64,000 bases of DNA from assembly GCF_022867795.2 (NCBI RefSeq), contig NZ_CP107006.1:2294001-2358000 (forward strand), read 5' to 3'. This document shows positions 24,724 through 26,574 of the stretch, in pieces. The DNA comes from Chitinophaga horti. Lineage in GTDB: Bacteria; Bacteroidota; Bacteroidia; Chitinophagales; Chitinophagaceae. The notes under the pieces were generated by a model, which saw only the letters and a program-made list of their open reading frames with translations, was not told the origin of the DNA and made no database searches. A program made the translations under genes and the position numbers. Position 1 is the stretch's first letter. Each line of letters begins with the position of its first letter.

Positions 24724-24758
24724 GAAGCCGGGCCTTTATAGCAACCCGGCTTCTTTTA
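24724..24758 (+). terminator. intrinsic terminator after metY
   Basis: Stem GAAGCCGGG (24724-24732) with CCCGGCTTC (24745-24753), a 12-nt loop, then TTTTATTTT. It lies between convergent genes and touches the stop codon of the GAF-PAS gene. Confidence 0.88.
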
Positions 24759-25592
24759 TTTTATGGGCTCAAAGAGCCATATACTTCCTGTTAGTTGCCG
24801 GTTATCTACCTGGCGAAAAGAAACACGGTATCGCTGCGATGCCAGTTCCCATATCCATTCTTCCGGTGCGGCTGCGCTGTTCCCAAATACCTGGGCAGCC
24901 TGCCTGTTTACCTCGTCGCGGTTCGTTATCCGGTGACGCAGGTTGGCCATGGCGGCCGACAAATCTGCGGGGCTGTACTCCCCTGCTTTTTCCAGTTCCA
25001 GTAAAGCGGCTGCTTTCTCGTTTACCCAGCCGGCATGACCGCTGTCGTCGATAAAGACCAGTGCCTGGGGAATTGCTTCCAGGATAGCAGTGAAACGGTC
25101 GCAGGAACGGATAAGTGCACTCTGGGAATTGCTTTGCCCCAGGATGCCGTTCATGCGGGACCTTGCCATGGAAATAAACTCGCGGAAAGTGGTGTCGAAG
25201 GCCTGGGGGCCACTCCAGCCAAATACCAATAGTCGCTGCGATCCGCCGCATAATACGGGGATAATAATCGCAGAGGACAATGCCAGCAGCAGGTGACCAA
25301 ATACATTATTGGCCGGAATGTCGCGCCAGAAGATCGGTTCCTGGTGATGTTGCACCAAAAAATCGTCGAGGCGGTCGGCGTTAAAGGCGAGATCGTCCAG
25401 GAATGAAGGTGTAGCGTTTTTGATACGGGCGGTGTAACTGTCCTCCAGAACTATCTGTAAGGCCAGGTAAGCATCCGTACTATCCTTCAATAGCTCCAGG
25501 GCGAAGGGCACAAATAACTCGCAATCGTTTGAAATATCCCACTTACTGGTATGGTCCATGAATAACACGGCCTTACGCTCCCAATTGCTCAC
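24756..25592 (-). CDS. GAF-PAS protein without output domain, partner of RsbQ-like hydrolase
   Basis: A 278-residue protein. Residues about 20-150 look like a GAF domain and residues about 165-278 like a PAS domain (AILEAIPQALVFIDDSGHAGWVNEKAAALL, ending LTGSIWLFEPI). The chain stops at the end of PAS: no histidine kinase, PP2C phosphatase or GGDEF domain follows. It starts 12 bp after the RsbQ-like gene, using GTG at 25592; an internal ATG at 25559 is the alternative. In Bacillus, RsbQ works with the PAS-PP2C phosphatase RsbP, so this looks like the sensor half of such a pair. How the signal is passed on is unknown. Confidence 0.78.
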   Translation of the reverse strand: MSNWERKAVLFMDHTSKWDISNDCELFVPFALELLKDSTDAYLALQIVLEDSYTARIKNATPSFLDDLAFNADRLDDFLVQHHQEPIFWRDIPANNVFGHLLLALSSAIIIPVLCGGSQRLLVFGWSGPQAFDTTFREFISMARSRMNGILGQSNSQSALIRSCDRFTAILEAIPQALVFIDDSGHAGWVNEKAAALLELEKAGEYSPADLSAAMANLRHRITNRDEVNRQAAQVFGNSAAAPEEWIWELASQRYRVSFRQVDNRQLTGSIWLFEPIK

Positions 25593-25604
25593 GTTACGGT
25601 TTTA

Positions 25605-26411
25605 TCAGATGAAATCGGTAATCGCTTTTACTACAGCATCCGGCGCAGACATGTGCGGGAAGTGACCGTAGGCGTCTACGACGTGCAACTGGCTGTTCTT
25701 TATATGTTCGTGTAAATAATCCCCAACCACCAGCGGCACGGCTACGTCTTCTTTGGCATGAATCAGCAAGGTGGGAACGGTTGCCTTTTGCAACTCCGAA
25801 CGGTAGTCGGATTCGAATATCACTTTTGCCACAAACAGGGCAATGTCCGGGCGAATATCGGCCAGTGTGGCGGCGAACTCGCTCACGAGGTCGGGTCTTT
25901 CGGGGGCGGCCATTACCATGGCGGAGAAGCCGGCCGTCCACGCTTTGTAGTTCGAACGCATGGTATCATACAAACCTTCCAGGGCTTCCTGGGTAAAGCC
26001 ACCCGTATATCCTGCGCTGTCGTCGTTCAGGTAACGCGGACTGGCACCAACGAGTACCAGTTTTTTAAAGAATTCGGGATAACGGATGGAGGTGAGCAGG
26101 CTCACCATGCCATTCACGGAATGCCCCACATAAATCACATCCTTCAGTTCCAAGGCACGGAAAATATCGACCAGGTCGAGCACATATCCCTGCAGGGAGC
26201 TATACTTGGCATTGTTGAATGCAGCAAGGTCTGATTTACCTCCGCCGGTGTTATCGTACAAAATGATCCTGTAATCTTTCTCGAAATATGGCAGGATGTA
26301 GTTGAACGCTTCCTGGCTGGAGCCGAAGCCGTGGCCGAACACGATCGTTTGTGATGCGTCCGGGTTACCCACGATGTTAATGTTGTTTCTCTTGGTTACA
26401 TTGATGGACAT
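25605..26411 (-). CDS. RsbQ/KAI2-like alpha/beta hydrolase
   Basis: A 268-residue alpha/beta hydrolase whose size and motif positions match Bacillus RsbQ and the plant receptor KAI2. Catalytic triad: S98 in VGHSVNGM, D222 in HAKEDVAVP and H250 in YGHFPHMS; the oxyanion motif is FGHGFGSSQ. RsbQ-type proteins hydrolyse or bind a small hydrophobic ligand and pass the signal to a PAS partner. The next gene, 12 bp downstream, is a GAF-PAS protein, which supports the assignment. The ligand is unknown. It acts in the cytoplasm; no signal peptide is present. Confidence 0.9.
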   Translation of the reverse strand: MSINVTKRNNINIVGNPDASQTIVFGHGFGSSQEAFNYILPYFEKDYRIILYDNTGGGKSDLAAFNNAKYSSLQGYVLDLVDIFRALELKDVIYVGHSVNGMVSLLTSIRYPEFFKKLVLVGASPRYLNDDSAGYTGGFTQEALEGLYDTMRSNYKAWTAGFSAMVMAAPERPDLVSEFAATLADIRPDIALFVAKVIFESDYRSELQKATVPTLLIHAKEDVAVPLVVGDYLHEHIKNSQLHVVDAYGHFPHMSAPDAVVKAITDFI

Positions 26412-26476
26412 AAGCAGCAGGTATGGTTAAATTGATTGTACGCTAAAGTAAAACAACTTATCCATAGATTAAAACT

Positions 26477-26516
26477 AAAGACGGTCTTATCCCTGATGTG
26501 GAACAAGACCGTCTTT
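26477..26516 (-). terminator. intrinsic terminator after the YtxH-like gene
   Basis: AAAGACGGTCTT (26477-26488) pairs perfectly with AAGACCGTCTTT (26505-26516) around a 16-nt loop. On the minus strand it is followed by AGTTTTAATC. It separates the YtxH-like gene from the RsbQ operon. Confidence 0.8.
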
Positions 26517-26574
26517 ATGTTTACTGTCGCTTCAAGCGCAGTATGTGGGTGTTTCTTTCATCGCGTATCCAATA

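Follow-up and report, generated by a model that had tools for sequence, protein, structure and literature searches.

Introduction

In Bacillus subtilis, RsbQ needs both its triad and contact with the PAS domain of RsbP (PMC3183031), and the Bacillus partner of RsbQ is a PAS-coil-PP2C phosphatase (PMC3183031). Nadezhdin, Brody and Price described 45 RsbQ-PAS pairs in 2011, in which an output domain (phosphatase, kinase or diguanylate cyclase) is attached to an N-terminal RsbP-type PAS domain with a conserved F-alpha helix, in most cases by way of a coiled coil (PMC3183031). Two of the 45 PAS proteins had no output domain, a lack put down to a contig end in one case and a frame shift in the other, and the signal of the bacterial module was unknown at the time of that study (PMC3183031). 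In the open-licence literature we found nothing beyond a passing mention of RsbQ modules in Bacteroidetes, and no earlier report of a kinase-less GAF-PAS partner of RsbQ.

We analysed a stretch of 64,000 nucleotides of Chitinophaga horti (the window), in which an RsbQ-like hydrolase gene is followed by the gene of a GAF-PAS protein. The original prediction for this DNA, which agreed with PMC3183031 in taking the Bacillus partner to be a PAS-PP2C phosphatase, proposed a distinct small-ligand sensing system with its output elsewhere. The pair is real and conserved, and is a variant of the known RsbQ-PAS module. In sister genera the same GAF-PAS is part of a hybrid histidine kinase, which makes the pair a kinase-less derivative of that module and not a distinct system. 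It is plausible that the signal reaches a separate effector through protein contact.

Results and Discussion

The gene pair of the window

Both genes lie on the minus strand, with the coordinates and the 12 bp spacing that had been predicted (Table 1); in the Chitinophaga genomes examined the gap is 12–29 bp. Because terminator-like hairpins flank the pair on both sides, the upstream one lying between the pair and a preceding 81-aa gene, the hydrolase and GAF-PAS genes appear to make up a closed operon of their own. Of the 26 Chitinophaga sequences whose GAF-PAS start codon was checked (the window, at 25592, and loci L051–L095), 25 had GTG and the remaining one TTG, weak starts in comparison with the ATG of the window hydrolase. 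The conserved weak start may determine how much GAF-PAS is made relative to the hydrolase.

Table 1. Features of the hydrolase and GAF-PAS locus, in window positions
Feature	Position	Strand	Remarks
Terminator-like hairpin	24724..24753	-	3 bp beyond the GAF-PAS stop codon
Stand-alone GAF-PAS sensor gene	24756..25592	-	278 aa, GTG start, kept in the genus
PAS domain, residues 174-278	24759..25073	-	Pfam and AlphaFold2 model; ends on last strand
GAF-to-PAS helix, 40 residues (134-173)	25074..25193	-	Candidate dimer helix, AlphaFold2 model
GAF-like domain, residues ~21-133	25194..25532	-	AlphaFold2 model and Foldseek only; Pfam: none
RsbQ/KAI2-family alpha/beta hydrolase gene	25605..26411	-	268 aa, ATG start, triad S98-D222-H250
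Terminator-like hairpin, 18-pair stem	26476..26517	-	Upstream of the hydrolase

Similarity to solved structures places the hydrolase, over its full length, in the RsbQ/KAI2/D14 family, with whole-length matches to RsbQ (1wom, E 2.4e-70) and a KAI2-like protein (6azc, E 9.9e-71) and a wide gap before the next unrelated hydrolases (E ~6e-21). The predicted triad was confirmed, its three residues being aligned with those of RsbQ and invariant in 17 homologues. The protein scores equally well against RsbQ and KAI2, and shares a family with the plant butenolide receptors KAI2 and D14, which work through F-box and SMXL proteins.

In the GAF-PAS protein, Pfam found only PAS_8 (22.1 bits against a cut-off of 21.8), with no match to GAF, HisKA, HATPase or REC domains. 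An AlphaFold2 model built from 24 homologues (pLDDT 88) consisted of a GAF-like block at residues ~24–126, the joining helix and a PAS fold at 177–277, and placed the chain end on the last PAS strand, which bears out the claim that the protein stops exactly after PAS. In a Foldseek comparison with the PDB this model came closest to the GAF-PAS module of DhaR from E. coli (E 2.6e-9), and phytochrome cores were also matched. The predicted tandem architecture was therefore recovered by AlphaFold2 and Foldseek, while Pfam upheld its PAS part and not its GAF part. DhaR has a transcription-factor output of its own, unlike the stand-alone GAF-PAS protein, with which it shares just 14% sequence identity. 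In PDB entries 4lry and 4lrz, going by their titles, the DhaR tandem sensor is bound to an enzyme subunit distinct from it, DhaK or DhaL.

A second type of RsbQ partner

As in the RsbQ-RsbP and other RsbQ-PAS pairs, the hydrolase gene stands immediately upstream of a PAS-containing sensor gene and keeps its triad. The window sensor differs from theirs in having a GAF domain followed by PAS rather than an N-terminal RsbP-type PAS, and in having no coiled coil after PAS; the 278-aa chain carries no PPM, histidine kinase, cyclase or GGDEF output. From 33 Bacteroidota partners of RsbQ we built a profile of the N-terminal PAS domain. Canonical partners scored 137–179 bits against it and GAF-PAS proteins at most 8.4 bits, and hhalign gave a probability of 6.6% for the RsbP-type PAS against GAF-PAS. 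With its PAS domain C-terminal as well, the window sensor was ruled out as an RsbP-type PAS protein. Because of the low profile scores, GAF-PAS is, on this evidence, a second type of RsbQ partner, of which the window has the kinase-less form.

Two further kinds of locus were seen. At L141:4928-5968 (minus strand), another RsbQ partner with reduced output, of 346 aa, carries two PAS domains, one of them of the RsbP type, and a HisKA-like end, apparently without an ATPase domain. At L139:4800-6000 and L161:6618-7385, the gene directly behind the RsbQ homologue is an unrelated one and not a signalling gene.

The short form is widespread in Chitinophaga and under purifying selection

Short GAF-PAS open frames were present in 42 of 79 Chitinophaga genomes, sharing the same end point, and no fused GAF-PAS was found among the 79. 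A truncation peculiar to this strain is thereby ruled out. The hydrolase occurred in 36 of the 79 genomes, always together with GAF-PAS (36/36), and in 0 of the 37 genomes without GAF-PAS. GAF-PAS genes also lay in several unrelated gene neighbourhoods.

No conserved co-directional third gene followed the pair across the pair-bearing genomes examined. The next gene ran in the opposite direction in nearly all of them and its family differed by context, which rules out an output gene directly downstream. In L122, the genes beyond the pair are co-directional and by sequence look like a TetR, TolC and RND set, with no output domain. A kinase remnant downstream was likewise rejected, none being found on the same strand within 4 kb of the pair. 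The idea that the pair is a sensor whose output lies elsewhere thus survives both tests set for it, a downstream output gene in relatives and truncation in this strain only; it needs revising in that the pair derives from an RsbQ-linked hybrid kinase.

The GAF-PAS gene had dN/dS values of 0.035–0.11 in the 16 closest pairs, similar to those of the hydrolase (0.049–0.106), so a pseudogene is ruled out and the sensor half is kept under strong purifying selection. That GAF-PAS is the decaying, functionless leftover of a lost kinase is accordingly most improbable: it is shorter than the fused kinases described below, and some lineages have no hydrolase or have lost parts of GAF-PAS, but the selection test contradicts decay, the gene is retained in 42 of 79 species and in unrelated neighbourhoods, and its chain end coincides exactly with a domain boundary.

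The same GAF-PAS is fused to hybrid kinases in sister genera

The search for GAF-PAS relatives covered a sample of 299 genomes from the family and 295 from the class, and outside Chitinophaga it yielded matches in a few genera. The short form was also present in two close genera (g39, g84). In G086, G281, G207, G122, G181 and G707, GAF-PAS forms the first ~280 residues of a hybrid kinase of 813–936 aa; G707 belongs to another family and the others to sister genera. Domain calls, which cover all of these but G707, gave HisKA, HATPase and two REC domains. Fusions of GAF-PAS to an output domain, as originally predicted, therefore exist. As to whether a kinase or phosphatase follows the pair in relatives, no co-directional gene is conserved behind it in the pair-bearing genomes examined, and the sister genera carry a kinase fused. 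In G310 the GAF-PAS frame runs into HisKA, and then the contig ends.

The fused kinases (L111, L112, L114–L116, L144) resemble the window pair in having a hydrolase of the same clade, 2–33 bp ahead of them, and the same GAF-PAS family. The window GAF-PAS aligned end to end with residues 1–281 of the G086 kinase at L111 (32% identity, E 4e-40). They differ in going on with D-[IV]-T, a coil, HisKA, HATPase, REC and REC, often with Hpt, which followed in three cases (an Hpt gene in L112 and L114, an Hpt domain in L116). The junction in most fused proteins reads G-x-LWVF-x-D-[IV]-T and is followed by a helix; the short proteins terminate at or just beyond GRLWIFE. The C-terminal end of the L120 protein, FDNVTLFFF, is likely what is left of a D-x-[IV]-T junction.

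In the GAF-PAS tree, which is unrooted, all 34 stand-alone rows fell on one side of a branch with support 100/99, and in the hydrolase tree all GAF-PAS-linked hydrolases formed one clade (100/100). The alignments and trees together show that the stand-alone GAF-PAS is either a descendant of the GAF-PAS hybrid kinase or parted from it by a single split. Since the outer lineages and another family have the fused form, and since a kinase follows almost every other RsbQ homologue sampled in the phylum, the kinase would have been lost and not gained, once, in the ancestor of Chitinophaga and close genera. At L124 and L177 (G115), a hydrolase of the GAF-PAS-linked clade stands without a GAF-PAS gene.

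Gene fission, in which the kinase half would live on as an unlinked gene, has very little to recommend it: Chitinophaga genomes hold many hybrid kinases, but the kinase halves of the fused relatives are 51–64% identical to one another, while the best full-length Chitinophaga matches reach 46% and are proteins of 1393–1411 aa in genomes without the pair (G035, G013), and the pair-bearing G018, G019, G027 and G738 have no kinase-half match at 1e-60. An orphan kinase is thus not supported by these matches.

Proposed signalling by the pair

The main reading, to which we give a probability of about one half, is that what remains here is the sensory half of a histidine-kinase phosphorelay of the RsbQ type, stripped of its kinase half, and that its output is relayed to a separate protein. 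By analogy with RsbQ-RsbP of B. subtilis, the hydrolase would bind or convert a small ligand and contact the sensor. This contact would change the state of a GAF-PAS dimer, which would hand the signal in trans, by contact, to another protein. Relay by contact is proposed because GAF-PAS has no output domain attached, and the pair probably signals to a separate protein because the kinase half is gone yet the sensor half remains under strong selection. Co-folding the hydrolase and GAF-PAS as a tethered in-frame read-through chain gave confident folds and no confident docking (pTM 0.55).

Six genomes had GAF-PAS without a full hydrolase match (G002, G004, G030, G740, G753 and G768, the last keeping a 113-aa remnant), and in two the hydrolase beside GAF-PAS was broken, by an internal deletion in G747 and by a frame shift or stop in G762. 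GAF-PAS carried a deletion or frameshift in three of these eight (G030, G740, G762) and in none of 34 genomes with an intact hydrolase (Fisher 0.005), which fits a sensor that needs its hydrolase. In the other five (G002, G004, G753, G768, G747) GAF-PAS was intact, showing that it can outlast the hydrolase for some time, and its dN/dS between G002 and G004, both without hydrolase, was 0.107.

In the strongest rival the output is the hydrolase itself. GAF-PAS would then be its regulatory subunit, responding to a cue by switching the activity of the neighbouring enzyme, with no further effector. The unbroken association of the hydrolase with GAF-PAS in the genus, the confinement of GAF-PAS damage to genomes with a lost or broken hydrolase and the absence of a linked conserved effector gene from the window's genome all suit such an arrangement. 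It nonetheless seems rather unlikely to us, given the five genomes that keep an intact GAF-PAS, the constraint between G002 and G004, and the joining of the sensor to a kinase in all fused relatives, which implies flow from hydrolase to sensor to kinase.

Less likely still is that GAF-PAS acts as a free antagonist, binding or titrating a two-component kinase until the ligand-loaded hydrolase releases the kinase from it. The long GAF-to-PAS helix is retained, and the part lost, D-x-[IV]-T plus the coil, is the one that would drive an attached kinase, both points in its favour; against this, the window's genome has no second, kinase-fused GAF-PAS for mixed dimers (one match at E 1e-3).

If the sensory-half reading is right, the sensing step has been separated from output and retained, unlike the covalently joined sensors of the 2011 study, and the pair offers a system of just two proteins in which to look for the ligand and to study hydrolase-to-sensor communication. 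GAF-PAS extends the known RsbQ partners by one kind.

In C. fulva (G747; L089 and L182) an in-frame internal deletion leaves 151 aa of the hydrolase adjoining an intact GAF-PAS. In C. vietnamensis (G740; L093, L094, L181) GAF-PAS without hydrolase has a deletion in its GAF part and stands in two copies on one contig, possibly an assembly duplicate.

A candidate output

The most likely target of the sensory half would be a two-component protein, and the best candidate output, a lead and not a result, is a CheB/CheR hybrid-kinase cluster with its accompanying REC-HEAT-GT2 polysaccharide operon. An operon of REC, HEAT-repeat and GT2 glycosyltransferase genes lay divergently upstream of the hydrolase in the fused loci L113, L114 and L116 (71–77% identity among their REC and GT2 proteins). 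In G115 (L177), without GAF-PAS, the hydrolase was convergent at the end of a REC-HEAT-GT2-GT2 operon. In many Chitinophaga the pair was convergent with a REC-kinase/CheB/CheR/hybrid-kinase cluster, itself divergent from the REC-HEAT-GT2 operon. The HEAT gene had one copy, at most two, per genome searched. Three independent arrangements in nine contexts would arise by chance with a probability of ~2e-6 to 2e-5 by a simple binomial, for a linkage spotted after the fact and before allowing for the many neighbours viewed. This linkage provides a first guess at what an RsbQ-type module controls in Bacteroidota.

The REC-HK gene of the cluster was present in 35 of 36 hydrolase-positive and 20 of 43 other Chitinophaga genomes, counts that ignore relatedness, and the association was gone in genomes of at least 7.2 Mb (30/31 v 15/16). 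In G168 the pair is intact and the REC-HEAT-GT2/kinase block absent. An obligate partnership with REC-HK is weakened by this genome and by the stratification by size. In the window's genome the block (C1:1692819-1700693) lies ~620 kb from the pair and is thus unlinked. We regard as possible, though on the doubtful side, the more specific proposal that the hydrolase and a free GAF-PAS dimer form a detachable sensor cartridge acting in trans on the CheB/CheR-linked kinase cluster and so controlling a cell-surface polysaccharide synthase.

The block at L165:1-19900 (G000 C1:1690001-1709900) is conserved in Chitinophaga, with orthologous loci L166–L176. It comprises a hybrid CHASE3-GAF kinase, CheR, CheB and a REC-kinase, divergent from REC, the HEAT protein and the GT2 glycosyltransferase.
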